Source: Candidatus Scalindua sp. (lineage in GTDB: Bacteria; Planctomycetota; Brocadiia; Brocadiales; Scalinduaceae). Taken from it: a stretch of DNA of 56,067 bases. The first letter of the stretch is position 1; each line of letters starts with the position of its first letter. This document shows positions 8,777 through 56,067 of this stretch, in pieces. The stretch covers positions 1 to 56,067 of the forward strand of contig JAIQZR010000046.1 of NCBI GenBank assembly GCA_021777035.1, in the 5' to 3' direction. The position numbers and the translations under genes were made by a program. The notes beneath the pieces were generated by a model. That model ran no database searches. It saw nothing but the letters and a program-made list of their open reading frames with translations, and was not told where the DNA came from.

Positions 8777-8778
8777 AA

Positions 8779-23900: not shown

Positions 23901-25200
23901 GCAAAACCGTGAATACACCTGGCCGAATGGTACTAAATATGTCGGAGAGTGGAAGGGAAATACAATGCATGGCCAGGGTACACTCATATGGACTAACGGC
24001 AGTAGGTATGAGGGTAAATTCAATAACAATATTGCCTCTGGAGGCTGGCTTTTCTGGTCTAATGGACAAAAGGCGTGGTCCCATCAGGATGCGTCCGGTA
24101 AGTGGATAACCGGTACAGTAGAATCTGCACGGCAGCAGGATCAACGTTCGTCCGATCTGGAATTCCGGGACTATACATGGCCGGATGGTACGAAGTACAC
24201 AGGACAATGGAAAGGCAACAAGATGCATGGAGAGGGGACGATAATATATCCAAATGGTGGCAAATATTCAGGAGAATGGAAAGATAGCATTAAAAGTGGA
24301 AAGGGGACTGAAACCTGGCCAGATGGTACAAAATATACAGGACAATGGGCAGACAACAAAATGCATGGTCAGGGCACTCTCACATGGACAAATGGCAACA
24401 GGTATGAGGGTGAATTCAATAATAATATTGCCTCGGCTGGCTGGCTTTTCTGGTCTAACGGACAAAAAGCATGGTCTTATCAAGATGGATCCGGTAAGTG
24501 GATAAATCAGCCGGGTAAACAGTCTCAACAACATGAACAACGTGATTATGCTCGGGAATTGGAAGATACTCAATCTATTAGTAAAAAAGTAAAGGCTATC
24601 AATAAGTTAATACAGGAGCGGCCAAAACGCCCGGTTGTAGATTGGAGCAAATTTCCTCCACCAAAATATCCGAACTCCACTACTGGATCATGGAAAAAAG
24701 TAAACGAAATTAAAACCTTACTGGCCCAGGGAAGAGAACAGGAGGCAAATACGATATTAATGGGAATGGATGATTATACAGCTGACAAGATACTGGAAGA
24801 GCTGTCAGAGAGTGAAATAGAGAAGATATTGAGTGTAGATGAAGATACGTATATTGATACGTTTGAAAATACAGGAGCAGATATAGCAGCAGCTGCAAGG
24901 TCGGCTCAAGCCGGCGATGTGAGAATGCAAACATCCTCACCCGTTTCAGATAAATTCATTTCTCCAACCATAAACGGATATCGATTAGACTGGTGCCGTG
25001 TATGGGGCGGAGACTGTGGCAAGGGAGCTGCTGACGCTTTCTGTCGTAAGAATGGCTACACAAGAGCAAAGTCCTTTGAGATAGATCATGACATAGGGCA
25101 AGGTTCACCGACATATACTATTGGATCAGAACAAGTATGTGACGAGAGCTTTTGTGATGGGTTTAAGTATATCGAGTGTGAACAAGATTTGACCAGGTAG
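20926..25200 (+). CDS. large secreted caspase-like peptidase (C25-type) with LamG-like domain and MORN repeats
   Basis: A 1424-residue secreted protein. Signal peptide about 1-24. A jelly-roll-like domain (about 42-228, DFNDGILDTNKW) recurs at the end of the 2033-residue neighbour. The central region resembles gingipain-type C25 peptidases: CLFVFGGNDVVPLG, a DDYYADFD strand, then the probable dyad H815 (NLHGAD) and C865 (SAACYGAD). About 995-1197 is a run of MORN repeats (YTWPNGTKYVGEWKGN, HGQGTL). An ERPxRPVVDWSKFP motif occurs twice (about 255 and 1232). A helical module spans about 1255-1305. The C-terminus (1350-1424) is Cys-rich with RLDWCRVWGGDCG. AGGAGAG supports the start. Expected at the cell surface or periplasm; proteolysis is inferred. 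Confidence 0.82.
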   Translation: MKKVLVLLCSFFIIQGIVSQVDGATGVARGVASDRQSVIILEDDFNDGILDTNKWIHIGISKKVPWVDKPGASVKEANGILTISEDRTDAGGAVKSIPFTVKRGDILKLTREVRIFPKGNFRNTSAFITEKGKPVAQYRYFYKYKKFKNGVYFDYDGKESVVPPWGKWFTEIVTYNTKTGETTYSIPGRGKMSRKFGTLPVSTFQLLFDAYGWFTGHKVEIDYVKLEKLTVVKKLSAEDRVKKIKKLISERPVRPVVDWSKFPDPVYPPTSKKSGQYDKESKGVTDKEVAGLLRALQSAVRRGDEAAFSRLVADSVEKANWAFDEDLFGVSNITKKDFINYYFADQIKDYNAFLAKDDLASNIISVKELGNGDKVVRFKFRDVGYIKAIPDSYYWKEKVFLNVWDMTVGKVGGVIKLKGINPHPKDFHKDVLDKFREFLFKNYPTGGTPPYKKVIDIYNKLINNFLKDQPAKIVSRTTPHFREKKNPPPRLLPKSKVTGKIKEFRENVQKIIENHYPDMKDKLQFEKIQTFNGVDYFIRMFQRLLINTIDGREVKFIKRLVLSVDESGKTLDYIIPILELMDPKQKKQLPPDARWDGEKFEPPVLEIGNNSCMVLTNLRILKAKHGINYTSIKRYLDSFGPVIDISSESVNPEDYRSIDAMLEKRFDRSRYNCLFVFGGNDVVPLGVYHNPVYDIIPKNPGKDWRDPDEFVYSDDYYADFDHDPANDWDVVLTRMPDDKGILADKNSTIYRSVPEDNRPDYSDFVVYGNRNWPVSDKMAVLGSATQPKVLKSTPFTENNFSPSYFEGRNVFINLHGADYDGTVYWGETEWDSVGKGGTPPSEALRNAINIDQAQAPGAIIVSAACYGADIVSNPTSDSLTALRFLRNGARAYIGNTKVGYIAPVLTHTIGLWAKLFKDNLDKGLSPQESFMLAKRAYAKQGSGPHHYKMYHQMIYLGLPPIKSVGKLVYDEETDTSKKVSNDFEKPQVDANLQNREYTWPNGTKYVGEWKGNTMHGQGTLIWTNGSRYEGKFNNNIASGGWLFWSNGQKAWSHQDASGKWITGTVESARQQDQRSSDLEFRDYTWPDGTKYTGQWKGNKMHGEGTIIYPNGGKYSGEWKDSIKSGKGTETWPDGTKYTGQWADNKMHGQGTLTWTNGNRYEGEFNNNIASAGWLFWSNGQKAWSYQDGSGKWINQPGKQSQQHEQRDYARELEDTQSISKKVKAINKLIQERPKRPVVDWSKFPPPKYPNSTTGSWKKVNEIKTLLAQGREQEANTILMGMDDYTADKILEELSESEIEKILSVDEDTYIDTFENTGADIAAAARSAQAGDVRMQTSSPVSDKFISPTINGYRLDWCRVWGGDCGKGAADAFCRKNGYTRAKSFEIDHDIGQGSPTYTIGSEQVCDESFCDGFKYIECEQDLTR

Positions 25201-31200: not shown

Positions 31201-31338
31201 ATTCCCGACCGTGGAAAAATGTCCCGCAGGTTCGGCACCTTGCCGGTAAGCACATTCCAACTCCTCTTTGACGCTTATGGCTGGAATACGGGACATAAAG
31301 TTGAAATAGATTACATGAAGCTAGAGAAAATTGAATAA
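25237..31338 (+). CDS. giant secreted protein with transglutaminase-like triad, PASTA, Ig/PKD-like and LamG-like domains
   Basis: A 2033-residue protein. A long basic N-terminus leads to a signal or anchor helix (about 49-75). The first domain has C151 (GTDTCGEWADRL), H185 (KHRAIGTW) and D200 (YVYDMWF), spaced like the Cys-His-Asp triad of transglutaminase-like enzymes. Four PASTA-like repeats span about 323-589 (VPDITGMDEASAKKELEK). Ig-like and PKD-like modules follow (590-870), then a domain shared with the 2537-residue protein. About 1585-1686 holds a module with GPAHSYHTNIG and SSSDNSDPRTNGR. Two helical modules (1695-1743, 1782-1831) precede a C-terminal LamG-like domain (1845-2033). GGGAGG precedes the start. 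PASTA units suggest binding to peptidoglycan or another cell-surface ligand (inference). Confidence 0.82.
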   Translation: MKHGKEGVIQNKSKEKRVEKWKKTVINQGLIPHKFFFIKKLNIYKLINKRFFPVYVLVTFLLVFLLAYSTTLSAQAKVWPVPPPYPKMPVQQTAKWWSDFGKAVKWEMGMGWPKKELDQANEVFRYIAKYGAAYNLKARCLLLGVSGTDTCGEWADRLIWAFNGAKINKNFEEVDTDTVKLKLKHRAIGTWDNNVFYVYDMWFAACDSNKGKVDSKLMRSKWNRMNLNDWCAEIKNSHKWSIKPQQEEELVLSRVRESLLKKIKPMKKNGKIILKIRTNILPDKITEITQSEVHNNCDCDIVSLQKKVYSELFKKKLLVKSTRIPDLIGMNEKAAINELKQVGLTLKKKEAVTFDKTHRPGVVVTQKPVKGDIIELTIPVNVELNPTKVKVPDITGMDEASAKKELEKYGLKLKKNTTTGFNNKFGIGKVLVQKPVNGTALSVGEEVWVTINPAIVAVPLLLGMDEAKAKKTLNNWGLKFKKKTATALSNKAGPGKVANQKPKAGKKVNVKTEVVLFLNPTDITVPDLKGMSKKEAAEALEKVGLKFKGEYVSSLNVKFEPGKVVGQVPDHSSLVKAGSPVMVFFNPTPRKLIGLEFEHREMTFKSKMGGEWIRVYAKYDDGTSDKVTPQCTWSTTDPGEKIIHHDAIKSPHHVSAVASGWARLTATYTEKGVTATAYCDITVDAPELEAGIDTDKTDYIVGETGIFRQNCKNTRSRTEYIWKIDDKVVGEGATLKYKFEEIGSFDMEMTVKTDYWRTEQDTAYLTIWIHEREFDSDFSYSPKKDEYEVGETVEFTNTSKGLGENVIFRWSTGTSFHFMKEVSNKRNFSFTFPEDGTYHIRLEVESELTGVVERKEITFSAEDPSVVPWKNWSGGNRNKIEVSGGKHNLTVCVKQWSMGKGKWPSKCNYEDYIGAVEGYAYCNGPFENLVNTSYLVYIEKGTGTLKYVVYGYDGRSVSGVIHNNNKEVDNDSISIECELRAAVVKWTNDDNTTCSARIWKKYRNEPAKGVDSLGCVQGQLKEPVLIIPANIIDGDKATLTIENYSKALRYTWYVNRQRAGSGSEISKTFKVGEYVVNVKARAGDGTSTESSGGFVVVPKESKSTKDQKLSEKFTFSLAPTDAFNRIMVLIHIENMKRNKEYRMTTNVDGVDVDCTRWNQSDWSKEEQTYGQTDFFVDETFSKPFKKSYVLVVKEYDERGKPTGVRVEKTLNLEKFVKYEPKPIEDLNRSIGINVAQAGSPKGLYYTGKWISFQAVVGSLGLNVDSDYEWDINGKSVENNQTVSQIFTKPGTYSAGVKVDAYDKVNKKKIIVGGGRITIVVENDPSRGDIDLSFSYEPEGEIYANIWTEEIITLSDGSKFPSKVYEEQSKVTFSVNNPEKNATYKWEVNDLLHGWHKKVHYGDSLIFDEFDYSGKYEITLFGKYNYDKAYLDKNSIIITPLDPKTKKSVTKKEPFSGSEELDFKEQEQVLSELDTNLAEFIGPDAVELGQTATFILAQHYPDNIYVFKINPPDKRSFSTTRETFSLPVTSEKGFVLGTNVIHMKVVDKKTAETHTYEMNVFVMKSEYKKTVTVTGSKHLQSESGEQILIPAEQIKQADPAYGPHCYLFQDLILRACGQFDNNSNPKVSKLMLYEDGRPLGPAHSYHTNIGNTGKGQFSHWDNYLLFSSSDNSDPRTNGRKYSLACVEKQDIHQEKSGKIKRLLEEGKLVEANKIMEFLPIDEVESFLDELDFEEVEKMLDADLSKRPERIDTYKNIGNTERHYKSLPEGVRDTILLQQRSTKAQSIKKLLSKGRTVEANKIIESLSDEEAESVLSELTTEETGKLLDVDLSMDSGEIKKESAVLLEDNFDDGILDTNKWIHISVGKKTPWTDNQGLSVKEADGVLTISEDMVDAGGAVKSIPFTVKRGEVLKLTRRLRVFPKDNFRNTSAFITKKGKPVAQYRYFYKYKDFADGVYFAYGGKERVTIAWGEWFTEIVTYNTKTGETTYTIPDRGKMSRRFGTLPVSTFQLLFDAYGWNTGHKVEIDYMKLEKIE

Positions 31339-32216
31339 TGAAAAGAAACACAATGATTGTGCTGCTATTAGTGGCTGTTATTCCTATTTTCAGCGCTTCC
31401 GGTTGTTTTATCTTGGAGGAGCATGGGCCATTTGAATGTAAGCTGATAGAATTGAGAAAGAATCCTTCCTCTCAATACTATGATGCTGTTGTAAGGGTTG
31501 ATTGGTTAACACTTAACGATGCGTTTAAAAGCAGGTTCAGCCTGGTCACGCCTACACAGAGTCATGAAATGAGAGAATTGAAATTTATTGAAGATGGCAG
31601 GAGAGATACAGAAATAGAGAATGATGATGTATTTATAGTGCCGTTGAACAGACCTGATTGGAAATTCTTTATCAGGGAACGCAACGACATCTATAGTTTG
31701 GTAAATTTTTGGGAAATGTTACCGGAGAATGACCGTTGGCATCCCCTTAAGTCTGAAGCCATGACGGTAGCAGAAGGTATAGAGTTAAAGGACGTAAATG
31801 GTACATACAAACCGATCCCAGGACTTCTGCCGGAAGGATGGAAGCTTTCAGAAGACAGGCCTATATCAACAGGTTATCGATACGGTGAATTGAATTACAG
31901 CAAGATGAAGGGACGAAATATCAAGGAAGAAGTGGACATCAGGTACTACAAATTAACCGGAGAGGAGATAGAGGAATTAACCACGATTTCTAAAACAGAG
32001 TTTTTGTCAGATTGGAGTGAATGGACAAGGAAAATGAGCTATCCAGGAGTTACAGCAGGCCATGATTCCGTTTGTTGGGACATGAAGGGCATTGGCCCTT
32101 ATGGATGGTCTTACCGATTCATGTATATAGACACTGACATGCTCATAGAAACAACCGTGAATTCAGATCCACTTGAATGGGTAAGAAAAGAGAAAGAGCG
32201 TCAAGTAATTCAATAG
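31338..32216 (+). CDS. lipoprotein, function unknown
   Basis: A 292-residue protein with a lipoprotein signal peptide: a hydrophobic stretch (MIVLLLVAVIPIF) and lipobox SASGC at about residues 19-23. The mature part is mixed alpha/beta with WHPLKSEAM, GLLPEGWKLSEDRP and GYRYGELNYSK; I do not recognise a family. Its ATG overlaps the stop of the giant gene before it (TAATG), so the two are probably coupled. A decayed copy of its middle lies at 42907-43248, showing past duplication inside the cluster. Confidence 0.78.
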   Translation: MKRNTMIVLLLVAVIPIFSASGCFILEEHGPFECKLIELRKNPSSQYYDAVVRVDWLTLNDAFKSRFSLVTPTQSHEMRELKFIEDGRRDTEIENDDVFIVPLNRPDWKFFIRERNDIYSLVNFWEMLPENDRWHPLKSEAMTVAEGIELKDVNGTYKPIPGLLPEGWKLSEDRPISTGYRYGELNYSKMKGRNIKEEVDIRYYKLTGEEIEELTTISKTEFLSDWSEWTRKMSYPGVTAGHDSVCWDMKGIGPYGWSYRFMYIDTDMLIETTVNSDPLEWVRKEKERQVIQ

Positions 32217-42906: not shown

Positions 42907-43248
42907 GAAATGTTGCCGGAAAATGATCGTTAGCATCCACTCAAATCTGAAGCGATGAAGGTTGCAGAAGGTATAGAGTTGAAGGATGTAAATAGCGCGT
43001 ACAAACCGATTCCAGGACTTCTGCCTGAGGGATGGAAACTATCAAAAGATAAACCAATATCAATAGGTTATCGATACGGCGAATTGAATTACAGTAAGAT
43101 ACGTGGGCGAAAAGTTAAGGAGGAAGTGAGCATCAGGTATTCAATATTAACCAAAGAGGAAAAAGGAATTAACCGCAGTGTCTGCAACAGGATTTTTATC
43201 AGATTGGTGTTAATGTCCGGGAAAGATGGCTGGATACATAAAGGATAA
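42907..43248 (+). pseudogene. decayed partial copy of the lipoprotein gene at 31338-32216
   Basis: From EMLPENDR onward the sequence matches the middle of the lipoprotein (VAEGIELKDVN, GLLPEGWKLSKDKPIS, GYRYGELNYSK). A TAG at 42931 replaces the Trp codon of the intact copy, and after about 43160 the reading frame departs from the parent. The N-terminal signal peptide and C-terminus are absent. The downstream ATG at 42955 opens a 97-codon frame, but it would lack any export signal. Confidence 0.8.
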
Positions 43249-43585: not shown

Positions 43586-46207
43586 GTGAAAAAAACATTC
43601 TGCTTTAAATTTCTTCTGGCAATAATCATAACCTTATCTTTTAATGTAACCATACATAACGCAGCGGCAGAAACCACTCACGATGCTATCGACCGGTATA
43701 GAGCAATAACTAAGGAGAATCCCGAATCCGTAGAAGCTCAATGTAATCTAGCGGATGCATATATCAGGAAATATCAGAAGACCTCTGAAAAGAAGTATCT
43801 CCTTTTAGCTAAAATGGCCGCAATAAAAGTATTGAATATTAACCCTGACTCACCTCTACCTCACCTATCAATGGCCAGGCTGTTCATCGCTCTCAATAAA
43901 AGCGACAAGGCTTTGGATCATGCACAAAAGGCGATAGGGCTTGATCCCGGGAATGCTGAGGCCCGGCAACTGCTTAAGGAACTTGGAGGCAAAGTTGCTG
44001 AAAATATAATTGACGCGGGGCCTCAAACAGCTCCAAATATTCCGGCCCCAGAATATACAAAGCCAAAAGGGACGTCAGATCTGATAGTAAACAACAGCCT
44101 TACACCAGAAAAACGAAAAGCGGTAAAAATAGAAGGTAAAGAGGCTTTACCCCTGCGTATCCTGACCAGACCGTTTTCCAATGTTTACACTGAGAAGGAT
44201 AATAGTAAAGGTACGGTGATGGAAAACGTACCTTCATTTCAGTCATTCTTTGTTTATACTAAACCATCTTCCGAAGATATTGAATTGGGAGATGCCTGGT
44301 ATGAAGTAGGTACTGACAATCTGGGGACAGTTGTTGGCTGGATGAGATATGATGATGTGTTTGAGTGGAAGCAGACAATGTGTCTTGCATATACTCATCC
44401 GGAAGGACGTAAGCAAGTCTTGATGTTTGAGAGAAAAAGCTATCTGAAGGGTATTATAGAATCATCAAGTGACGACAGAACCAAGAATGCGGAAGAACTA
44501 TACACAGCTATAGATTCCAGGGATATCCCTCAGGACTTTCCTGTGATATCAATAGAACCGAAAAAAGCAGTGGATATCTCAAAACAATTCTATCTCCTTC
44601 CTATTCTGGATTTCCAAACGATAGAGATAGATGGTCGGGAGGGCAGGTTATTAAAATTAGCAGCCGTAACAGGTACACGTGAAAAGAGCGATATTCGTGT
44701 TGACAATGAATTTCTTGATGATGCCCTGGGAGAATCTACCAGGGTGGATGAAAAAACATTAAAACAACTTACTGTGGATTTAGTCTGGGTCATGGACACT
44801 ACCGTAAGCATGCGACCCCACATTGCACAAACCCTTGACGTGGTGAATAATGCCTCTACTCAAATTACACAGGATAAGGAATTGACCGAGTCTATTCATT
44901 TCGGCATATGGGGTTACAGAGATAACCTGGAAGCTATACCGGACATCGGATATACTACAAAGAATTACTCACCTGCACTGCTGACCATAGACAAATTCAA
45001 AGACACTCTGGCCATGGTAAAGGTAACAACAACCGACTCAGTTGACTATGAGGAAGACGTGTTTTCCGGTATGAACGACGCTATTTACAGTACCAAGTGG
45101 AGCCCGAATGCTATGCGTTTGATAGTTTTAGTCGCCGACGCTCCCGGCCACGAACTTGGACATGAATGGAACCTTTCTAAATCCGATGAAAACACTTTAC
45201 ATGAACTCGCCAAAGATAATAATATTTATATCATTGCAATTCACATAAAGGAGCCTAGAGCCGGTCAATACCATGAAAAGGCGGAAACCCAATTTCTTAC
45301 TCTGAGCAGGAATGAGGGACAAGGCGTCGAATCTGCGTATTATGATATCCCCTCGGACAACATAGATGCCTTTCACAGGGTTACCACCGAATTTGTAGCA
45401 AAAATCAGTAAACTGGTTTATAGCGCCAAGAAGGGGACTATGTATGATGATACAACTGCCAAAGTTGCTGAAGATTCAACTAGTAAGCCAATTGAGGTAA
45501 ACCATAAAGCTAGTGGAGAAATGGCCTTCCTGAATGAGTCTGAGGGATCAAGTGATAAAACAAGTCCTAAGTCTTCTTTGGACGTTAAAAAAGATATACC
45601 AAAAGGAGAGATGGCTTTCCTGGAAGAAGCCGAAACTATAACAGCATCCGGAGAGCAGTTTGATTCGGTAATAAAGGCAGCATTGGTGAAGTGGATCGGA
45701 ATAATGTCAGAGGCCCAGTCTCCAAGTGACATTGTCGCGTGGGCCGTGGACAAGGATTTGGTAGAGCCTGCCATTCAGTCAATGGAGGTTCGTCTGCTTA
45801 TCAACAAGCGTCAGCTCGATTCGCTTAAAACCGTACTGTCTGATGTGATGTCGGCCGGGAGGCGAGGCCAAATTGGTGGAGAGAATTTCTTTGATGCGTT
45901 GCAGGCAACAGCAGCCACTGCCGCACGTAATCCGGACAAGATTATAAATGCAAAGGCCATGGCCCAAACCGGTCTCATCCCGGAGTTCCTGGAAGGACTG
46001 CCATATAAAAGTAAATTAATGGATATGAGTAATGAACTATGGTTCAGTTGGTCAGTAGACGAACAGTTTGAGTTCCTCAATGAACTTGATGCGAAGATTC
46101 ATGCCTATTTGTCTATCCACGATACCCCGGAAGGTTGGATACAACTCAATAAGGGTGACGATCCGGACGAACACGTTTATCCTATCAGCTTGGAGTTGCT
46201 TCCTTAA
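43586..46207 (+). CDS. secreted TPR/SH3-like/vWA protein resembling the PpkA periplasmic domain, without kinase
   Basis: An 873-residue protein starting at GTG (43586-43588) with AAAGGAG seven bases upstream. Signal peptide about 1-28, TPR region about 30-132 related to the neighbouring TPR proteins. An SH3-like segment follows (about 188-275: LPLRILTRPFSNVYTE, VVGWMRYDDVFEWKQTM), then a von Willebrand factor A domain from about 398 with a MIDAS-type motif D404-x-T406-x-S408 (VWVMDTTVSM) and GIWGYRDNLEAIPDIGY. The C-terminus reads GWIQLNKGDDPDEHVYPISL. The SH3-vWA-tail order is what I know from the periplasmic part of the type VI secretion kinase PpkA; here the kinase domain is replaced by TPRs. 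It lies three bases upstream of the TagT-like ATPase gene, implying one operon. Confidence 0.82.
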   Translation: MKKTFCFKFLLAIIITLSFNVTIHNAAAETTHDAIDRYRAITKENPESVEAQCNLADAYIRKYQKTSEKKYLLLAKMAAIKVLNINPDSPLPHLSMARLFIALNKSDKALDHAQKAIGLDPGNAEARQLLKELGGKVAENIIDAGPQTAPNIPAPEYTKPKGTSDLIVNNSLTPEKRKAVKIEGKEALPLRILTRPFSNVYTEKDNSKGTVMENVPSFQSFFVYTKPSSEDIELGDAWYEVGTDNLGTVVGWMRYDDVFEWKQTMCLAYTHPEGRKQVLMFERKSYLKGIIESSSDDRTKNAEELYTAIDSRDIPQDFPVISIEPKKAVDISKQFYLLPILDFQTIEIDGREGRLLKLAAVTGTREKSDIRVDNEFLDDALGESTRVDEKTLKQLTVDLVWVMDTTVSMRPHIAQTLDVVNNASTQITQDKELTESIHFGIWGYRDNLEAIPDIGYTTKNYSPALLTIDKFKDTLAMVKVTTTDSVDYEEDVFSGMNDAIYSTKWSPNAMRLIVLVADAPGHELGHEWNLSKSDENTLHELAKDNNIYIIAIHIKEPRAGQYHEKAETQFLTLSRNEGQGVESAYYDIPSDNIDAFHRVTTEFVAKISKLVYSAKKGTMYDDTTAKVAEDSTSKPIEVNHKASGEMAFLNESEGSSDKTSPKSSLDVKKDIPKGEMAFLEEAETITASGEQFDSVIKAALVKWIGIMSEAQSPSDIVAWAVDKDLVEPAIQSMEVRLLINKRQLDSLKTVLSDVMSAGRRGQIGGENFFDALQATAATAARNPDKIINAKAMAQTGLIPEFLEGLPYKSKLMDMSNELWFSWSVDEQFEFLNELDAKIHAYLSIHDTPEGWIQLNKGDDPDEHVYPISLELLP

Positions 46208-46209
46208 TT

Positions 46210-46980
46210 ATGCAGAGAACGCAAATAAACAAGTGTAGTGATAATGTTTTTTTATTGCGGGAAGTTCACAAGACTCGCGAAAAAGGAGGTGTTGTTTTTG
46301 AACTGAGAATACCTTTTATGACTGCACAAAGAGGTGAGTTTCTGGCCGTAGTCGGTCTCAGCGGGTGTGGCAAATCCACTTTACTTGATATGCTTGGCCT
46401 TGTACTGAAGCCGACTTACGCAAAGGAGTTTCTGTTAAGTATCGGAACAGAAAACAGGAAACAGATAAAAATTACTACTTTACTAGAAAAAGAACTGGCT
46501 TCAATACGTAAAAAATCTATAGGCTATGTACTTCAAGCAGGAGGATTGCTGCCATTTCTTACCGTAAAGGAAAACATAATGTTGCCGTGTCGTCTCAACC
46601 GGGTAAGTAACGGCAACGCTGTTTTTGATCTGGTCAAACGCTTGGGTATTTCTGACCAGCTTTCCAAAAAGCCTCAACATCTTTCAGGTGGGCAGAGACA
46701 GAGGGTAGCTATTGCTCGTGCACTGGCCTGCGGACCTCCTCTTGTCCTTGCGGACGAGCCAACGGCTGCTGTGGATAAGCTAACGGCCATTGAGATAAGA
46801 AATGAATTCAAGGAATTGACACAACAAATGGGAGTTACTTTAATTATGGTCACACATAATCAGGCACTAGTGGATAACGTTGCTGACAGAATTTTCACCT
46901 TTAATGTGGAAAAAAAAAGTAAGGATCATACCGTTTCTACAATTTATGAACTGAAAAAACATGACAGGCAAACATTATGA
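46210..46980 (+). CDS. tagT: ABC transporter ATPase, TagT-like (LolD/MacB type)
   Basis: A 256-residue cytoplasmic ATPase that should drive the permease encoded next. Walker A at about 48-56 (GLSGCGKST), Q loop (YVLQAGGLLPFLTV), signature LSGGQRQRVAIARA at about 158, Walker B LVLADEPTAAVD at about 178, H loop VTHNQ. It belongs with the LolD/MacB/FtsE ATPases that power mechanotransmission rather than import. Its stop overlaps the permease start (ATGA). Naming as TagT rests on the gene order with the SUMF1 protein and PpkA-like vWA protein. Confidence 0.82.
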   Translation: MQRTQINKCSDNVFLLREVHKTREKGGVVFELRIPFMTAQRGEFLAVVGLSGCGKSTLLDMLGLVLKPTYAKEFLLSIGTENRKQIKITTLLEKELASIRKKSIGYVLQAGGLLPFLTVKENIMLPCRLNRVSNGNAVFDLVKRLGISDQLSKKPQHLSGGQRQRVAIARALACGPPLVLADEPTAAVDKLTAIEIRNEFKELTQQMGVTLIMVTHNQALVDNVADRIFTFNVEKKSKDHTVSTIYELKKHDRQTL

Positions 46981-48956
46981 TATCTCTTCATAACAACCGA
47001 ATGAATGCAAACCAAACGAAAAAGGCCATGATCTCAACAAATATGGATAAATCAGCAGGAAGAATGAGAAGTCCTTTGAGCATTGTATTTCAGCTTTCTT
47101 GCGCTGATTTGAGACACGAATGGGTTTTGACTATTTGTCTGGTCATGGCCGTTACAGCAGTACTCTCACCCTTAATGATTCTCTTTGGTTTAAAATTCGG
47201 GACTATTGAAGTGTTGCGTTTTCGCCTGATACAGGATCCCAGAAATCGCGAAATAAGACCATTGACGAGTAAATCTTTTACTCAAGAGTGGTTTCACAAA
47301 CTAAGAAGCAGAGAAGATGTCTCCTTTATCGTGCCTACAACGCGCCAGATCTCTGCTTCAGTAGAAGCTCGGATAGAAGGAAATTCCGAAAATGAAGGCG
47401 AGAAAAAGTTTACTCTGGACATCATTCCAACGGACGATGGAGATCGGCTCATTATAGAAAACGGAGCTTCTATTCCAACTTCGGATCAGTGTGTTCTAAC
47501 CAATGCTGCCGCAGAGAAGCTTGGCGCAAAGATTGGCGACAGACTTATTGTGACAGCAAAACGTTACAAAGGTACTCGTTACGAAAAGGGAATGCTTTGC
47601 CTCAAGGTCACAGGTGTGCTCACAGACCGGGCAAGTGCCTTAAAGTCTATTTATGTCCGTCTGGCTATTCTGGAAGCGGTAGAAAGTTACAAGGACGGTC
47701 AGGCAGTGCCTGAATACGGTTGGGAAGGGTCAACGCCTAAGGCTTATCCTCTATACGACGGTTTGGTAGTCATCCTCTCAAAGAAACTAAACAAGATAGA
47801 AGAATTCAAATTAATCAATAATACTGGTTTTACAAAGATAGAGCCGTTAACAACACGGGAACTCTTTGAACGGGCAGGTTACCTTTTATCACCAGGAAAA
47901 ACTATTTACCTGCTCTCTACCAAGAGAAAACTTGCTGGCCATGAGAGCGTTAGATCTATAGGATTTCGCTTGCGTGGCAAAGGAGCTGTCTTGATTCCCT
48001 GGGTAAGTGAATTGAAGGCTGAACTTGTTGACAGATCCAACCATGTGGTTAATTCTCTTACTCTTTTAAGCCTATCCGTTCCAAAGGAAAAAGCAGTTGA
48101 TATAGGGATGATTCCAATTCCAGCCTGGAGTAGTGAGGTAGATCCCGATGAGAATAATTCAGACACTGCTCAATGGCGCAAAATCATGTTGCCAGAAAGT
48201 GTCAAAAGACCAGACGGTCCTGTACGACTGCATGTAATAAGAGACGATGATTCATTTATTTTTCCGATCCAAATTGAATCTGATTCTGTTCCGAAAGAAA
48301 TTGAGCAGGAATATGCTGCTTTTATTCCGGCAAGGCTTGCGGGCATACTGAATTTGTTTAAACACCGTAACATTACTTTTGATAATACAATCAGGGAGTT
48401 TGTTCTTTCACGTCGCGGGTATGCCGGTTTCCGCCTGTATGCGTCAACTATTGACGATGTAGACCGCATCAAACAGCACCTGGAGGAAGAGGGTATTCCT
48501 GTTCATACTGAAGCTGAGCGGATCCGTGATGTTACTGAGTTAGATATATACCTTACCTTAATCTTCTGGTTGATTGCAACGGTCGGTATTATCGGTGGTG
48601 TGGCCACATTAATGGCCAGTCTCTACGCTTCTGTGGAACGTAAGCGTAGAGATTTGAGTATACTTCGTCTGATTGGACTTTCCGGAGCTACCCTGTTACG
48701 TTTTCCAGTCTATCAGGGTATAATTATTGCGGTCGGCGGTTTTTGTGTGGCCTTTGTGTTTTTTGAATCATTGGCCTGGATCATCAATACACTGTTCAGC
48801 AATCATCTACAAGCTGAAGAGAGTCTCTGTCGTCTGGCTATCTGGCACTTTATAATTGTTCTGGGTGCCACTGTAGCTGTGGCAGTACTGGCGGGTACCG
48901 TTGCCGCATGGCGCGTCACCCGGATAGAACCGGCTGAGGCATTAAGAGATGAGTAA
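46977..48956 (+). CDS. tagS: FtsX-like ABC permease, TagS-like
   Basis: A 659-residue inner-membrane protein with the type VII ABC topology: one helix near 53-76 (WVLTICLVMAVTAVLSPL), a very large periplasmic domain (about 77-520), then three helices at the C-terminus (IFWLIATVGIIGGVATLMAS; IIIAVGGFCVAFVFF; FIIVLGATVAVAVLAGTVAA) and the closing RITRIEPAEALRD-type end (here VTRIEPAEALRDE). DPRNREIRP after the first helix resembles TagS proteins of type VI loci. Together with the ATPase it would transmit ATP-driven motion to periplasmic partners instead of moving a substrate. Confidence 0.83.
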   Translation: MISLHNNRMNANQTKKAMISTNMDKSAGRMRSPLSIVFQLSCADLRHEWVLTICLVMAVTAVLSPLMILFGLKFGTIEVLRFRLIQDPRNREIRPLTSKSFTQEWFHKLRSREDVSFIVPTTRQISASVEARIEGNSENEGEKKFTLDIIPTDDGDRLIIENGASIPTSDQCVLTNAAAEKLGAKIGDRLIVTAKRYKGTRYEKGMLCLKVTGVLTDRASALKSIYVRLAILEAVESYKDGQAVPEYGWEGSTPKAYPLYDGLVVILSKKLNKIEEFKLINNTGFTKIEPLTTRELFERAGYLLSPGKTIYLLSTKRKLAGHESVRSIGFRLRGKGAVLIPWVSELKAELVDRSNHVVNSLTLLSLSVPKEKAVDIGMIPIPAWSSEVDPDENNSDTAQWRKIMLPESVKRPDGPVRLHVIRDDDSFIFPIQIESDSVPKEIEQEYAAFIPARLAGILNLFKHRNITFDNTIREFVLSRRGYAGFRLYASTIDDVDRIKQHLEEEGIPVHTEAERIRDVTELDIYLTLIFWLIATVGIIGGVATLMASLYASVERKRRDLSILRLIGLSGATLLRFPVYQGIIIAVGGFCVAFVFFESLAWIINTLFSNHLQAEESLCRLAIWHFIIVLGATVAVAVLAGTVAAWRVTRIEPAEALRDE

Positions 48957-49024
48957 AAACTTATTTATTAGCGTGGTGTGACAATTCAGAATTATATAAT
49001 TCTATGAGAACATAAATATTTCTT

Positions 49025-50710
49025 ATGAAAAAAACCAACAATTATATGTCAAAAAAAATTCGCACTACTGGAGTATTCCACCAACATTGCTTTTTAAAAA
49101 AAGTAGACGCATCTGTTCGATGGTTGATTATTGCGTTGATCACAATCTTATCTCTGTCATTTACTTCTATGGTAAATGACAGCAGGGCTGACATATTCAA
49201 TCCTAAACCGGACAAAGAGGATTTTATATTACCAATGCCGGGTAATAGGAGTATGGTTTTCAGGCCTGTCTACATAGGAGAGAACGACGAACCATATGCC
49301 ATGCGCAAGTTTACGGTTGGAGATCCCAGTGGAGGATTCAAAGAATATCCCACAACCGTAGCTATTGGAGGTGCATTTGTCGGGGAGAATAATGGACGAA
49401 GGGATTGGTTATATTACATGGGAAAATATGAAGTTACAGAGGCCCAATATGCTGCTGTTATGGGACTTTCCAATGATGAAACGGAAGAAACCCTCAAGAG
49501 TCAGTATCCGGTACATGATATTTCATTGCTTGATGCCATGGAGTTTGTGGATCGATACAATCAATGGCTTTTTGCAAATGCACTTGACAAGCTTCCAAAA
49601 AATAAAACGACAGTAGGGTTTATTCGGCTGCCCAGTGAGATAGAGTGGGAGTTTGCTGCACGAGGTGGATCTGTTATGTCTGATGATGATTTTGACCGTA
49701 TAAAACCTTACAGGGGTAATCTGGCGGATTTTGAATGGTTCTCCGGTCCAAAGTCTTCCCACAATAAAATCAAGAAAGTTGGCAAACTAAAACCCAACGT
49801 GTTGGGCATTCACGATATACTTGCTAATGTTTCCGAAATGACTTATAGTTTGTACCAGATAGAATACTACCAGGGTAGACTTGGTGGATTTGTAAGCCGG
49901 GGAGGCCACTATTTGACATCAGAGAAAAGAATACGGTCTTCTCTCAGAACAGAAGAACCATTTTACATTGGCAGTACAAAGAAGGGTTTCAAACCAAACC
50001 GGAAACCAACTATGGGCTTTAGACTCGTGCTATCATCCATAATATACGAAGACCGCAGCACTGCCAGACAACTGAAGACAGATTGGAATGAATACCGGGG
50101 CGGTAAAGGTGCAAATATGCCCGCTGCCGTCTCAGTCAGCCCTACCATTGTCCAAACAGATGTAAAAAATGTTGATGCGTTCAAACATCTTGACAGACTG
50201 AAAGTGGAATTGTACAAAATGGGTAGTATTCCACAAGGCATACTACAAGAGATGGGATTTCTTGAAGCGGCCATGGGTGACATCAAATTTATCCTGAAAC
50301 GGGCAGATGAGAATTCCGCATTCGCCTGGGCAAAGATCGCTGCAGAGCGAGGTTTCTTCATATTCAGGGAACTGAGAAAACTACCAACTTTAAAGAAGGC
50401 TTTAACAATCGCAGAAAGATCTGAACGTACGAAAATGGCAGAAAAATTAAAAATTCGCAAGTCTGAATTAGAACTAAATATAGAGCAGGCCCTGACGTCA
50501 TACTCAGATTCATTTCGTCAACTTGCCACTATTGTTCCCGAGACTATTGAAAAGGGGTTTAAGAAATATATTAATTTTCTGGTGGAACATAATGCTCCCG
50601 ATCAACTTCGAGTGCTAAAAACAGTGCAAGAACATTTTGACACCTACAACAACGGCAAACGTGCTGATAAAGATACATGGAAACAGGATTTTATTAATAT
50701 CGGAAAATAG
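49025..50710 (+). CDS. tagR: periplasmic SUMF1/formylglycine-generating-enzyme-like protein, TagR-like
   Basis: A 561-residue protein with an N-terminal membrane segment or uncleaved signal (WLIIALITILSLSF, about 38-52). Next comes FNPKPDKEDFILPMPGNRSM, a segment I associate with TagR. The SUMF1-type domain (about 100-345) has YYMGKYEVTEAQYAAVMG, PVHDISLLDAMEFVDRYN, RLPSEIEWEFAARGG and GFRLVLS. A helical C-terminal domain (about 375-555) follows. In Pseudomonas, TagR acts in the periplasm with TagQ and TagS-TagT to activate PpkA; catalysis is not known. The ATG at 49025 has no strong ribosome-binding site and a later in-frame start is possible. Confidence 0.85.
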   Translation: MKKTNNYMSKKIRTTGVFHQHCFLKKVDASVRWLIIALITILSLSFTSMVNDSRADIFNPKPDKEDFILPMPGNRSMVFRPVYIGENDEPYAMRKFTVGDPSGGFKEYPTTVAIGGAFVGENNGRRDWLYYMGKYEVTEAQYAAVMGLSNDETEETLKSQYPVHDISLLDAMEFVDRYNQWLFANALDKLPKNKTTVGFIRLPSEIEWEFAARGGSVMSDDDFDRIKPYRGNLADFEWFSGPKSSHNKIKKVGKLKPNVLGIHDILANVSEMTYSLYQIEYYQGRLGGFVSRGGHYLTSEKRIRSSLRTEEPFYIGSTKKGFKPNRKPTMGFRLVLSSIIYEDRSTARQLKTDWNEYRGGKGANMPAAVSVSPTIVQTDVKNVDAFKHLDRLKVELYKMGSIPQGILQEMGFLEAAMGDIKFILKRADENSAFAWAKIAAERGFFIFRELRKLPTLKKALTIAERSERTKMAEKLKIRKSELELNIEQALTSYSDSFRQLATIVPETIEKGFKKYINFLVEHNAPDQLRVLKTVQEHFDTYNNGKRADKDTWKQDFINIGK

Positions 50711-50741
50711 ACAGAAAAATTATAAAATTGCTTGAAATCTT

Positions 50742-50768
50742 CTTCCGTTTATATCAAGATAACGGAAG
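50742..50768. other. hairpin between the tagR-like and tagQ-like genes
   Basis: CTTCCGTT (50742-50749) pairs with AACGGAAG (50761-50768) around an 11-base loop. No T-run follows, so it is a poor terminator; a TATAAT at 50776-50781 just downstream could be a -10 box for the lipoprotein gene, though I see no good -35. Confidence 0.35.
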
Positions 50769-50810
50769 GTGTATATATAATGATACAATTACAAAGAAAG
50801 GGGATTTGAC

Positions 50811-51476
50811 ATGAAAAAAGAATTAGTGATATTGCTTGTTATAGTAATCAGTATTTCATGCTTAACAGGTTGCCAGACTACTGATAAAACACGTACAAAG
50901 GCAGAAGGAACTGCTGTTGGCGCAGGTGGTGGTGCTCTCCTTGGCGGTCTCCTTGGTGTTGCATTTGGTGGTGGAGATGGTGCTCTTATTGGCGCGGCTG
51001 CCGGAGCAGTTGTAGGCGGGGCTGTTGGTTATGCTTATGGAACTCATGTGGCCAATGAAAAAGATAAATACGTAGAGGCCGAAGATTGGTTGGATGCATG
51101 TGTAGACAGTCTGAATGAGACAAACAAAGAGACCATGGAGTATAATCTAGAACTTTCTAAGAACATCAAGGACATGGATGCTACAACAGCCCAGTTAGTT
51201 ACTGACTACGAAAACAAAAAAGTCAAAAAAAGTGTTTTGAAAAAGGAAAAGAAAAAAGTTGATGCTACGCTTGAAGAGGCTGAGGAAAAGCTTGCTAAGG
51301 CAAACTTCGAATTGGAAAACCAACTGACAGTATTGGAAGAAACAAAGAGGGAAGTAGGGCAAGATGAATATACAAAAGCGTTAGATGAGAAAATTGCCGA
51401 ACTTAAAATACACATTGAAGATTTAGAGTCGCAGACTGAAGAGTTAGCTTCATTGTCAAGCCGTATGTCAGTATAA
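50811..51476 (+). CDS. glycine-zipper outer-membrane-type lipoprotein, candidate TagQ
   Basis: A 221-residue protein with lipoprotein signal peptide and lipobox LTGC at about residue 21. A glycine-zipper segment (about 37-77: GAGGGALLGGLLGVAFGGGDG, then AAAGAVVGGAVGYAYG) should insert in or lie on a membrane. The remainder (about 85-221) is a long charged coiled coil. TagQ is the outer-membrane lipoprotein of the TagQRST set, and a lipoprotein at this position after a TagR-like gene fits, but sequence-level assignment is weaker than for its neighbours. AAAGGGG precedes the ATG. Confidence 0.8.
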   Translation: MKKELVILLVIVISISCLTGCQTTDKTRTKAEGTAVGAGGGALLGGLLGVAFGGGDGALIGAAAGAVVGGAVGYAYGTHVANEKDKYVEAEDWLDACVDSLNETNKETMEYNLELSKNIKDMDATTAQLVTDYENKKVKKSVLKKEKKKVDATLEEAEEKLAKANFELENQLTVLEETKREVGQDEYTKALDEKIAELKIHIEDLESQTEELASLSSRMSV

Positions 51477-51533
51477 TTCTATTATTTCCTAGTTAAAACT
51501 TTAGTGATGTATTGGATTCCAAAATTATTTGTC

Positions 51534-51569
51534 TACCTGATAGGGGTAAAAAAATACCCTTATCAGGTA
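51534..51569. terminator. strong hairpin downstream of the TagQ-like gene
   Basis: TACCTGATAGGGGTA (51534-51548) and TACCCTTATCAGGTA (51555-51569) form a 15-pair stem (one G-T pair) with an AAAAAA loop. It sits 58 bases after the lipoprotein stop and 69 bases before the next frame. The absence of a T-run argues against a classical terminator; it may stabilise the upstream mRNA or attenuate readthrough. Confidence 0.5.
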
Positions 51570-51658
51570 TCATTAGCTAATGTGTATAGCTTTACTTAAT
51601 CTAACGTACTAATTGCTAAACACGAGCATAACAAAGTATGGAGGGATTCTGTAAACAG

Positions 51659-52132
51659 ATGAAGAGTGTGTGTGTCATAATGGCCATATTTGTCTTTATG
51701 CTTTTATCTGGTTGCCAAACCACTACTACTGATCCAAGAAAGGGTGGCCTGTTCGGTTATAATCCAAAGGCTTACGAAAAACGGCTTGATGACCGTAGAA
51801 ATCTAAAAGTGGATTTGGAAAGGCAAAATACCGAAATAAAGCAGGAATCAGAAAAACTCAAAGAAGAATATACAAGCAAGCAAGCTGAACAGGATGACTT
51901 GGCGAGAAAGGTAGCCTCACTGGACGAAGAAGTTGATAAGATTGAAAAAGAGATTGCAAACATAACGTTACGCACGGATTTACAAAAACACGCCAAGTGG
52001 AAAATTGACCTGAAACTGAAGAGCCTGAAAAACAAACTTGCCGATACAGAAATAAAGGAACGGAAATTAAAAGCGCTCCAGAAGAACCTCGACAGTTTGC
52101 TGGAAGAAGCTGCATCCCTTAGTGACCTCTAA
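51659..52132 (+). CDS. coiled-coil lipoprotein of the Tag-like cluster
   Basis: A 157-residue protein, taking the ATG at 51659 (MKSVCVIMAIFVFMLLSGC) so that the lipoprotein signal peptide is normal; the ATG at 51638 would overlap its own ribosome-binding site GGAGGG. After the lipobox LSGC comes TDPRKGGLFGYNPKAYEKRL and then a continuous coiled coil to the end (QESEKLKEEYTSKQAEQDDL). The head sequence resembles small lipoproteins I associate with TagR-containing loci, from memory. Probably anchored in a membrane leaflet and reaching into the periplasm as a rod. Confidence 0.75.
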   Translation: MKSVCVIMAIFVFMLLSGCQTTTTDPRKGGLFGYNPKAYEKRLDDRRNLKVDLERQNTEIKQESEKLKEEYTSKQAEQDDLARKVASLDEEVDKIEKEIANITLRTDLQKHAKWKIDLKLKSLKNKLADTEIKERKLKALQKNLDSLLEEAASLSDL

Positions 52133-52363
52133 GCAGAATCATTGCAGCATATCCAAAAAATGCTCTTGCAACACAACGACACAATTAAAGCAGGAAGATT
52201 CAAGCCTGTCTGCAATAAGATAGTACATGTAAATATGGTTGACAATTAACTGCTATCGTTTTACGCTTGCAAATATAGGCACACTGCACTCTCAAGCAGA
52301 AAGAAATAGCGCTAAACCGCCCTAGACCTAACTAAAGACTTTATTTTTCGTGAAGAAATTCTT

Positions 52364-53494
52364 ATGCTTTTACGTTTGTCATACCTCTTGTTAATTACTC
52401 TCAATATCGCTTTTAGATTATGTAGCACGGCCTTTTGTCAAACCAACCAGACGGCATGGACGAGTAACGACGATATGCTTTTGTTTTATGAAGCCGTAGT
52501 GAAGATACAGAAAAATACGCTTAAGTCCGAAACTACCAGACAAATGGTGTACAAGGCCATTCGCTTCTACATGCGGGAGCAGGATCTTTTTTCTGATTAC
52601 CTTCCTCCAAAAGAGTATGATGAATATAAGCATTCTCAAAGTGAGCGATACACAGGAGTGGGAATGGATATATTCAACGACCATTCCGGTAGAGTTGTCT
52701 GTATACCTTTTCCGGATGGACCAGCAAGTGAAGCCGGAGTGGATTACGGTGACGTTCTTACATTTGTAGACAACCATTCGGTAGATGGCAAATCTGTTTT
52801 TACCATTGGGTCTTTGATACGTGGCAATCCGGGAACTTCTGTTTCCCTGGTGTTTCAGGACTCAAAAGGTGCAACAAAACAGTATTCTTTACGCCGCCGG
52901 CAAATCAAGTTTCGATCAGTAATCCTTCAACGATCAGGTCAGTTCTTGGTGTTAAAAATAATCCGCTTTACAAACGAAACTTCAGAGGAACTAAGAAGTG
53001 TTCTAGACAGCCTGGTACCTGATATGACAAAAATCATTGATCTAAGAGGTAATACCGGTGGAGACCTTTTTGAGGCGATAGATACAGCTTCAATGTTTCT
53101 GGATTCTGGCACCAAAATTGTGGATCTTAAGACCAGCCAAGGTATTAAAACATACGCAGCCACCAGAAAACCAATAGACACAAATTCTAAATTATTCTTA
53201 TGGCAGGATGGATTCACTGCTAGCGCGGCAGAAGTGTTTATTGCGGCGCTGGTTCAGAATGGCCGTGGAATCTCCATTGGTCAAACCACTTTTGGTAAAG
53301 GGGTTTCCCAATGCATAATCGAACTGACTGACGGATCTGCGCTATTTGTTTCCAATGCCGCCTTGCGTTCACCTAATGGTGACTATTTTCACTTACACGG
53401 CCTTGAACCGGAATATGCCATAAGTGGTAAAAGCCATGATCTCTCTGTTGAAGAATATGCATCTAAAACGGTGGAAATTAATGAAATAGAGTAA
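52364..53494 (+). CDS. S41-family (C-terminal processing) serine peptidase with PDZ domain
   Basis: A 376-residue exported protease with a signal peptide (to about residue 25). The N-terminal helical part (about 30-85) includes DLFSDYLPPKEYDEY. A PDZ domain (about 95-175) shows YTGVGMDIF, GPASEAGVDYGDVLTFVD and LIRGNPGTSVSL. The peptidase core has IIDLRGNTGGD, the probable nucleophile S287 (FTASAAEVF) and general-base K312 (TFGKGVSQ), the Ser-Lys dyad of this family. Family members trim C-termini of exported proteins. It could process the giant secreted proteins nearby (inference). Confidence 0.9.
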   Translation: MLLRLSYLLLITLNIAFRLCSTAFCQTNQTAWTSNDDMLLFYEAVVKIQKNTLKSETTRQMVYKAIRFYMREQDLFSDYLPPKEYDEYKHSQSERYTGVGMDIFNDHSGRVVCIPFPDGPASEAGVDYGDVLTFVDNHSVDGKSVFTIGSLIRGNPGTSVSLVFQDSKGATKQYSLRRRQIKFRSVILQRSGQFLVLKIIRFTNETSEELRSVLDSLVPDMTKIIDLRGNTGGDLFEAIDTASMFLDSGTKIVDLKTSQGIKTYAATRKPIDTNSKLFLWQDGFTASAAEVFIAALVQNGRGISIGQTTFGKGVSQCIIELTDGSALFVSNAALRSPNGDYFHLHGLEPEYAISGKSHDLSVEEYASKTVEINEIE

Positions 53495-53527
53495 TGATAA
53501 AAGGTAAAAAGAAAAAAGCGTGAATTA

Positions 53528-54334
53528 TTGAAGAGTATATGGGGGCTTGGATCCAATTATTTTGCTGCCCTGCCTTACGGTAGGAAAATGGAATACGCTG
53601 CAGACGCTTATGGACTATTGTACATGGCAGCGGCCGGTTATGATCCAAGGCAGGCGATAGAATTCTGGGTAACCATGAGTAAATCCGGGACGAAAATGTT
53701 CGAATTTCTCTCTACACACCCATCAGAAGAGAACCGTATCATGAAGCTCAGGGAAAGTCTCTCGATAGCATTAAAAGTGTACAATAATGCAAAATTAAAA
53801 ACGGAAGGTATGGGTAGCCCGCTCTCCTTTAATGGGACATACTTTGTTCCGGAAAACAAAAAACCTTCAATCTCAGGTCTTCAACAACCGGCAAATTTAC
53901 CTGCTGCTAAATTCGAGGCAATCTGGATTGAACATAATGTTAAATTTAATAACACATATGGAATTACTCTCCATAGTACGTTTACTATTTTCAATTATAA
54001 AGGCCGGAATGGGTTTATGAATGTCTATTTTTCATTCCCTAATGGCAAATGGCTGCTATCAAGAGATAACGCCTATCAGTCTCAGGGTGGCTATGTAGTT
54101 ATATCATCAACGTTTCGTCCGAAATTTCCCAATACTAAATTTACTGATTTCAAGAGCTTTATTCCATATCATGAACTGCATCTGCAAAAAGGGTTTCACA
54201 ATATTGTAGCCAATGTTAATATAGTTGATCCAAAAAACAATCTCTCTCTTAGGAAGGACTTCCACTTATTTGAATGTAGTAGAAAAATAGTATTTGAGAA
54301 ATTTTGTGTCTGTTTATTTTCTTGTCTATGTTAG
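53528..54334 (+). CDS. 5'-truncated M48-type peptidase with extra C-terminal domain
   Basis: The 268-residue frame begins at a TTG without a clear ribosome-binding site. Its first 90 residues match only the C-terminal part of M48 metallopeptidases: EYAADAYGLLYMAAAGYDP (with the third zinc ligand Glu) and LSTHPSEENRI. The HExxH helix and membrane region that should precede it are absent, and the gap to the upstream S41 gene is only 33 bases. The C-terminal 130 residues form an unrecognised beta-rich domain (GFMNVYFSFPNGKWLLS). Most likely a deletion relic; it overlaps the convergent homoserine dehydrogenase gene by nine bases, so its 3' end may also be altered. Confidence 0.6.
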   Translation: MKSIWGLGSNYFAALPYGRKMEYAADAYGLLYMAAAGYDPRQAIEFWVTMSKSGTKMFEFLSTHPSEENRIMKLRESLSIALKVYNNAKLKTEGMGSPLSFNGTYFVPENKKPSISGLQQPANLPAAKFEAIWIEHNVKFNNTYGITLHSTFTIFNYKGRNGFMNVYFSFPNGKWLLSRDNAYQSQGGYVVISSTFRPKFPNTKFTDFKSFIPYHELHLQKGFHNIVANVNIVDPKNNLSLRKDFHLFECSRKIVFEKFCVCLFSCLC

Positions 54335-55669: not shown

Positions 55670-55733
55670 AAGTGTTTAAACGCGATAATTCTATAAGGAA
55701 ACCAGGAAGACAGGAGAATACAGAGGGGAAGAG

Positions 55734-55790
55734 CTTTTATCTTTTAATTCATTTTGTGTTTTCTTTGCGACCTCAGCGTCTTGGTGTGAG
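55734..55790. repeat. partial family B element, reversed
   Basis: Reads as the reverse complement of the segment GCTGAGGTCGCAAAG ... GAATTAAAAGATAAAAGC found in the family B copies near 4710-4755 and 14310-14360. Only this inner part is preserved. Confidence 0.6.
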
Positions 55791-56004
55791 TGAAAAAAAG
55801 GCAAAAAGCTCGGACTCACACTAAGGCACGAAGGCACGGAGAAAAGTGGGATTAGGAAGGAAAAGAGAGCTTAACGCTCCCCGGACAAAAAGCGCCGAGG
55901 ACAGGGAGGCGCTGAGAGCGCAAAGGAAAAATGCTTTTATCTTTTGATTTAATGCATTGGAAGTCGGGCAGGTTACTCGACATCATCATTGTCTAAGAAT
56001 TCGA

Positions 56005-56067
56005 TCGCCAACCCGCCCCCGCCAGAATCATTGTCGCCCGCCCGTGCCGGTACGGACGGGGGCTGGC
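56005..56067. repeat. dispersed GC-rich repeat, family A2, copy 2 (cut by window end)
   Basis: Matches 277-340 almost base for base, starting TCGCCAACCCGCC and running to GGGGGCTGGC at the last base of the window. Confidence 0.75.

Follow-up and report, generated by a model that had tools for sequence, protein, structure and literature searches.

The window analysed here, the whole stretch of 56,067 nucleotides of Candidatus Scalindua sp., is one whole contig (JAIQZR010000046.1) of a 4.16-Mb draft genome (95% complete) from a family of anammox Planctomycetota. Seven plus-strand genes at 43586-53494 encode, in order, a vWA protein, an ATP-binding cassette (ABC) ATPase, an FtsX-type permease, a SUMF1 protein, a glycine-zipper lipoprotein, a coiled-coil lipoprotein and an S41 protease. 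On sequence comparison, this module is best read as belonging to a second branch of Tag-type envelope sensors and as having arrived by horizontal transfer. About even confidence was given to the fuller reading, in which the presumed output of this second branch would be local proteolysis in the periplasm, executed by the S41 protease and powered by a type VII ABC transporter.

The gene set recurred in 34 loci of five phyla (two contigs labelled Myxococcota were set aside), and the module is therefore not a chance assembly. These 34 loci (L024-L057; L-numbers denote loci and G-numbers genomes) are the relatives referred to below, and loci L095, L096 and L099-L111 form the other branch. The relatives show a conserved unit of a vWA protein homologous to the PpkA ectodomain, TagT-, TagS-, TagR- and TagQ-like proteins and a coiled-coil lipoprotein; their fetched flanks contained no kinase gene. 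A preliminary description of the window had listed the first six genes, in this order and on this strand, at 43586-52132; all six were found there, and the S41 gene, with which the module reaches 53494, had been overlooked.

Homology to the Tag/PpkA block of a type VI cluster

Profiles were built from the window family and its relatives and run against L099, a reference type VI secretion system (T6SS) locus recognised by TssK (2.8e-161), DotU/TssL (6.3e-75) and IcmF/TssM (1.2e-99). Locus L099 is ordered tssK-tssL-tssM, followed by PpkA, in which a kinase (Pkinase 8.6e-35 by Pfam) is fused to vWA, then TagT, TagS, TagR, a TagQ-like glycine-zipper lipoprotein and a coiled-coil lipoprotein; these PpkA and Tag names were assigned by homology and context, and the comparison is to L099, not to the named P. 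aeruginosa locus. The vWA profile matched L099 PpkA at residues 408-1039 (profile positions 30-703; 477 bits, E 5.5e-146 to 8e-146). The ATPase (46210-46980, plus strand; ABC_tran 7.9e-27) was TagT-like, its profile scoring 231 bits against the ATPase beside PpkA, and the permease (46977-48956, plus strand; FtsX 7.4e-13; 637 aa from an alternative start M at 47043) was a long form of TagS, matching the 405-aa L099 protein at 405 bits (E 3e-124). For the SUMF1 protein (49025-50710, plus strand; PF03781, FGE-sulfatase/SUMF1, 8.4e-23), the match to L099 TagR took in profile positions 14-529 of 531 (309 bits, E 3e-95); an unrelated SUMF1 protein in L098, used as a control, reached 60 bits over positions 104-280 only. 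The coiled-coil lipoprotein (51638-52132, plus strand; lipobox Cys26), which had no Pfam match above cut-off, is homologous to the sixth gene of this block, behind the TagQ-like gene (64 bits, E 1e-20).

The glycine-zipper lipoprotein (50811-51476, plus strand; lipobox Cys21; Gly-zipper 3.1e-7) is TagQ-like more weakly than the other genes are assigned. Its profile matched the L099 TagQ-like lipoprotein (76-77 bits, E 9e-25) and an NF041250 TagQ (E 1e-9), and the window protein itself scored 16.1 bits (E 0.0053) against NCBIfam TagQ NF041250, short of the cut-off of 300; the L099 lipoprotein beside PpkA was likewise below it (19.4 bits). Homology to L099 spanned most of each protein. By these profile matches, which bear out the Tag-like assignment first proposed, the window genes are homologues of the PpkA ectodomain and of TagT, TagS and TagR.

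All seven frames were open, and the first six genes were spaced by 2, -4, 68, 100 and 161 nt. The PpkA-homologous part of the vWA protein (44066-46204, plus strand) consists of a beta-rich N-terminal part (labelled SH3-like by eye), an integrin-like vWA domain with the MIDAS-type motif DTTVSM (44795-44812, plus strand) and a conserved C-terminal part ending HVYPISLELLP. A structure prediction (model m80342ce2237a, pLDDT 79) matched integrin I and beta-I domains, with a best target-normalised TM-score of 0.71; Pfam gave TPR plus a weak vWA match, and a PDB sequence search returned TPR proteins. The quoted motifs were present in the window proteins, namely DTTVSM, GWMRYDDVFEWK, HVYPISL, Walker A and LSGGQ. 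The lipobox Cys of both lipoproteins was kept in 24 of 24 aligned family members. No Rfam match at gathering score was obtained in the window.

Formylglycine-generating (SUMF1) enzymes use a catalytic Cys pair. The TagR-like protein has no such pair: no column of its SUMF1 domain had Cys in more than 2 of 25 rows, and the sole Cys of the window protein was C22. With no conserved Cys in its domain, this pseudo-enzyme is probably a binding scaffold; its sequence matches among solved structures were a Treponema protein, the ring protein PorK/GldK and SUMF2. In the coiled-coil lipoprotein (stretch 51713-51775), the lipidated Cys is followed by the strongly conserved motif DP-x2-GGLF-x-Y-x-P-x2-Y, with motif columns kept in 22-24 of 24 rows, and the L099 homologue beside PpkA keeps DPRQGGLF. 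The DP-x2-GGLF motif is perhaps a docking peptide.

The S41 protease and the permease insert

The seventh gene (52364-53494, plus strand) encodes an S41, or C-terminal-processing, protease with a PDZ domain (PF03572 4.6e-30; PDZ_6 1.3e-6). Membership of this family was supported by the PDZ domain and the Ser-Lys dyad, with a TIGR00225 score of 193.5 bits lying under the cut-off of 218.6; Ser287 (codon 53222-53224) and Lys312 (codon 53297-53299) were conserved in 24 of 24 sequences. A six-frame profile scan detected S41 in the window and 24 of the 34 relatives (in L041 only as a piece before the contig end). Eight of the ten S41-less relatives were cut by contig ends inside or just behind the module (L024, L032, L037, L039, L040, L045, L051, L052); L028 was cut on one side, and L048 (Succinimonas) was an isolated vWA paralogue, upstream of which lie two masked stretches. 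The S41 gene adjoined the coiled-coil lipoprotein in three arrangements: colinear, block-swapped (Desulfobulbaceae, in which SUMF1 to S41 come first and vWA to permease follow) and in the inverted half of L056. Each of 8 carrier genomes tested held only 2-3 S41 domains, which puts the chance of an S41 gene in a given 22 kb at ~1.6%. Pairwise distances of S41 correlated with those of vWA (r 0.92) and of the permease (r 0.93) to about the same degree as the core members did among themselves (0.69-0.94).

A further general module gene was sought among the neighbours and rejected, as the other clusters occurred in only 4 to 7 loci and none was general. One minor cluster was a group behind S41 in gut bacteria, with ankyrin repeats by Pfam in the tested member L042; another comprised 741-977-aa proteins behind the permease in five loci, of which the tested member (L057) had no Pfam match. 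Ankyrin-repeat proteins stood right behind the module in L042 (18561-20552, behind S41) and L098 (1049-3505, instead of S41), and relatives of the L042 protein were found in six other loci.

The T6SS form of TagS is a short permease of ~405 residues, from which the window permease differs by an insert of ~205 residues (47748-48398, plus strand; limits approximate), placed by alignment and by split versus continuous profile matches and lying within the extracytoplasmic domain. The insert was contained or entered in 30 of 30 sources among the window and L024-L057. Complete permeases of the window's branch matched the profile unbroken, partial matches being confined to L044, whose gene is divided between two frames, and to the truncated L036 and L040; all 15 permeases of L095, L096 and L099-L111 matched in two pieces, with about positions 220-425 missing, that is, without the insert. 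No S41 gene was found in the fetched stretch of those 15 loci. A vWA tree (midpoint root) separated 37 from 13 rows with an SH-aLRT of 100; L024, L104 and L106 were left out of it, the vWA parts of L104 and L106 having been recovered by six-frame scan, and L024 was also outside the neighbour clustering. Locus L097, on an Azospirillum plasmid, fell in the window's branch and carried both insert and S41, and the other branch held the T6SS and Srf loci. The gene set of L066 and of several other-branch loci was incomplete at contig ends.

The permease was modelled (mb44b66bd995e, pLDDT 84) with four long helices fitting membrane helices and one large extracytoplasmic domain between the first two. 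Its closest fold matches were LolC/LolE (E 8e-12, best target-normalised TM-score 0.60), with MacB, YbbP and FtsX also matched. The predicted fold fits that of a type VII ABC transporter (FtsX/MacB fold, large periplasmic domain), a putative assignment that would also entail ATP-coupled motion.

Kinase, type VI secretion and Srf genes

A kinase profile was made from L099, L103 and L108 and applied at a threshold of E 1e-5. Among the 15 other-branch loci, it matched a kinase fused to vWA in L099, L103 and L106 and a separate adjacent gene in L107 and L108 (Pfam confirmed the kinase for L099 and L108; L109 is truncated on the side on which a kinase would be expected). No match was obtained in the window or in L024-L057, by which a hidden kinase beside the module was ruled out, and none of the 34 relatives (33 loci aligned, L024 examined separately) had a kinase-sized N-terminus. 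Nor was a second copy of the vWA part, kinase-fused or not, found in the Scalindua genome. The vWA protein is thus kinase-free, as had been described: Pfam gave only TPR ahead of vWA, and by eye there was no membrane anchor. The view that this state is unusual did not hold; with kinases fused in 3 and adjacent in 2 of 15 other-branch loci and present in none of 34 relatives, a kinase-free vWA protein is, on these sequences, ordinary in this family.

A separate cytoplasmic partner would be an alternative output. The module would then signal to, for example, a Ser/Thr kinase encoded elsewhere, and S41 would only trim or turn over module parts. Precedents for such a layout were found in L108, where a Pkinase gene (1.8e-48) lies directly upstream of a kinase-free vWA-TagTSR block, and in L107, with a kinase-profile match at the same place beside the vWA gene. 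This alternative is judged unlikely, since the kinase profile found no such gene in the window or the relatives (kinases elsewhere in the genome were not searched) and the vWA protein of the window's branch shows, by eye, no membrane anchor by which to reach a cytoplasmic kinase.

Neither the window nor the DNA flanking the 34 relatives yielded a T6SS homologue when 51 proteins from seven T6SS loci were compared with 453 open reading frames (E 1e-6), in agreement with the earlier statement that no type VI gene is in view. The Scalindua genome contained neither TssK nor TssC (other Tss genes were not searched genome-wide), by which a hidden T6SS was set aside; with this draft 95% complete, their absence is probable rather than certain. 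Across 33 carrier genomes, which came from the pattern scan and are not a random sample (the genomes of L057 and L048 were left out; L046, of the same strain as L048, was included), TssK was present in 14, TssC in 3 of the other 19 and neither in 16. Carriers with neither included three Scalindua genomes and the DSM strains of Desulfocicer vacuolatum, Desulfogranum marinum and Desulfobulbus alkaliphilus. For the phylum of D. vacuolatum, 297 evenly sampled genomes were searched for vWA (E 1e-30) and TssC (E 1e-10). These were found in 15 and 30 genomes, respectively, and together in 3; 12 of the 15 vWA carriers lacked TssC, 27 of the 30 TssC genomes lacked vWA, and the four genomes with a vWA score of at least 800 bits were all without TssC. 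By gene content, kinase and T6SS are dispensable in this family.

SrfC (PF10139) was present in 9 of the 33 carriers and was found neither in the Scalindua genome nor in any of the 16 carriers without TssK and TssC, by which Srf was set aside as the missing partner there. On the Leclercia and Klebsiella plasmids of L095 and L096, a vWA-TagT-TagS-TagR block without a kinase comes directly after srfA-srfB-srfC; 114 of 125 plasmid records with a vWA match were from Klebsiella. Srf may represent a further output of this sensor.

Insertion site, proposed mechanism and related systems

The first 160 residues of the vWA protein (43586-44065, plus strand) form a TPR extension with a signal peptide by eye and 45% identity (residues 2-135) to a TPR protein of the sister genome G004. 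In that genome a longer M48 peptidase frame with an HEIAH motif comes after the TPR gene, and a homoserine-dehydrogenase-type gene after that. Similarity of the window to the G004 TPR gene ended at ~43989 and DNA similarity to G004 (locus L020; 88.9%) restarted at 53501, inside the M48 frame and at the right edge of the module insertion. The window M48 gene (53501-54334, plus strand) is shortened at its 5' end: the L020 protein aligned from residue 87 only, and with the first 86 codons, HEIAH motif included, missing, the gene is probably a pseudogene. The simplest account of these alignments is that the module replaced the region between the TPR and M48 genes and was fused in frame to the 5' end of the TPR gene. 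None of the 34 relatives carried the TPR part (33 loci aligned, L024 inspected separately), so the TPRs are not what replaced the kinase; the earlier proposal that they stand in for kinase and anchor is not supported, this gene fusion accounting for their presence.

The vWA part was found in 2 of 13 genomes of the genus (the window's own included) and in 1 of 4 others in the family. Among the remaining genomes of the 147 searched, it gave partial matches in 3 members of the phylum (G087, G109 and G124; E 1e-8 to 1e-12), which were weak and not counted as modules. This sporadic distribution, together with insertion at the TPR/M48 site, fits horizontal arrival. In genome G016, of another genus of the family (contig of L025), six of the genes had counterparts at 62-82% identity, and a profile recovered the glycine-zipper gene as well. 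In L025 (Scalindua SCAELEC01), two divergent vWA copies lie in opposite orientation beside one module (6865-9579 and 9911-12019).

Several repeats were recorded on the window contig. A dispersed repeat of ~250 nt occurs at 4555-4804 and 14159-14407 (97-100% identical) and inverted at 55729-55781, with similar stretches in the sister genome (L020 18032-18121). Window 31713-31971 is 81% identical to 42907-43165, a piece of the gene at 31338-32216 being repeated as a fragment just upstream of the module. Both contig ends share a 66-nt repeat (274-339 and 56002-56067; 97%), a likely assembly break point. Elsewhere, the 1424-aa product of 20926-25200 has MORN repeats and gave a match to a C25 peptidase.

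In Pseudomonas, the Tag proteins are a signalling module in which TagQ and TagR are needed, and TagS and TagT help, in type VI activation (PMC6657622), and outer-membrane damage is the probable signal of TagQRST-PpkA (PMC11881912). Type VII ABC pairs typically act via a partner in the periplasm, which is a hydrolase in the case of YbbAP-TesA (PMC12646458). In the mechanism proposed for the window's branch, the two lipoproteins, placed in the outer membrane, would sense outer-membrane disturbance or contact together with the periplasmic SUMF1 and vWA proteins, and the vWA protein would couple this sensing to the ATPase and permease. These two would form a type VII (LolCDE/MacB/FtsEX-like) mechanotransmission pair in which ATP binding moves the long periplasmic domain, and that movement would activate or feed the S41 protease. 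Where the kinase version phosphorylates Thr in a type VI component, the output here would be local periplasmic proteolysis, with cell-wall enzymes or damaged lipoproteins as examples of its substrates. Of the earlier proposal of a stand-alone machine reusing the Tag module for another output, the second half fits the recurrent S41 neighbour; "stand-alone" overlooks the protease. Held more tentatively is the wider proposal that the whole branch is wired to a periplasmic protease, that the FtsX-type permease switches on S41 via the branch-specific domain and that the type VI kinase is just one among several outputs that can be plugged into an older or more widespread sensor.

The following points weigh against this reading. 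The S41 distance correlations were computed without an unlinked control gene, and S41 could merely process the lipoproteins of the module. Locus L098 has the permease insert and no S41 in its fetched flank, with the ankyrin protein in its place. The vWA tree was a quick search with a long branch separating the two branches, and the lack of S41 in the other branch holds for the fetched part only, as some loci are cut (for example, L100 and L109). As 17 of 33 carriers have TssK or TssC, the module may be linked to T6SS in some hosts; in the even sample, a Fisher p of 0.18 proves neither a vWA-TssC link nor its absence.

The same genes could also form a lipoprotein- or lipid-handling machine (LolCDE/YbbAP-like) in place of a sensor, the ATPase and permease extracting an envelope substrate and passing it to the SUMF1 protein, vWA protein and lipoproteins, with S41 degrading it. 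The LolC/LolE and MacB matches of the permease model are what such a machine would give, and YbbAP-TesA likewise pairs a type VII ABC transporter with a hydrolase; this fold match cannot separate transport from mechanotransmission, and the signalling role of the homologous Pseudomonas proteins makes transport the improbable choice. That the module is a relic of type VI regulation, orphaned, decaying and without present function, is highly improbable, its sporadic occurrence in Scalindua and the shortened M48 gene and repeated gene piece beside it being outweighed by seven open frames, conserved catalytic and lipobox residues and the retention of the genes in G016.

Compared with TagQ-TagR-TagS-TagT-PpkA of the P. 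aeruginosa H1-T6SS (via L099), the window module as an envelope sensor has the same families in the same order from vWA to the coiled-coil lipoprotein; it differs in having no kinase domain, no Tss genes found nearby, a long permease insert, an added S41 gene and a glycine-zipper protein far below the TagQ cut-off. Tag genes without T6SS are not new: in 2013, tagQRST/ppkA with srfB and srfC were reported from host-associated Deltaproteobacteria, of which only one had T6SS machinery genes, according to the cited excerpt (PMC3608642). The Klebsiella and Leclercia plasmid operons likewise have Tag genes without T6SS machinery and a kinase-free vWA, and, unlike the window, these srfABC-vWA-TagTSR loci are of the other branch, with a short permease, srf genes and no S41. 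YbbAP-TesA and FtsEX-EnvC also pair an FtsX-type permease and an ATPase with a periplasmic partner; there, the partner is an esterase or amidase activator, not S41, and no vWA, SUMF1 or Tag lipoproteins are described in the excerpt consulted (PMC12646458). CtpA-LbcA of P. aeruginosa is an S41 protease with a lipoprotein partner, there an outer-membrane one, and the excerpt of its source mentions no ABC transporter or vWA (PMC8764530); the lipoprotein neighbour in the window is a short coiled coil. Among the matches listed, titles and abstract openings of the open-licence literature held no description of an S41-linked Tag branch or of the permease insert.

TagQRST-PpkA is known as a type VI alarm. 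Its presence in an anammox bacterium without the type VI apparatus or the kinase, and mostly with a protease in the relatives, suggests that the Tag alarm is portable and can be wired to different outputs. With the sensor retained and the output exchanged in one branch, the signal and the role of the ABC transporter become testable outside T6SS. Parts common to both branches (vWA, SUMF1, lipoproteins, ATPase and permease) should be the sensor, and the differing parts (kinase, Srf, and S41 with the insert) should be the output. If the proposed reading is true, a protease joins the known partners of type VII ABC transporters, and anammox bacteria would have an unexpected envelope-surveillance system.

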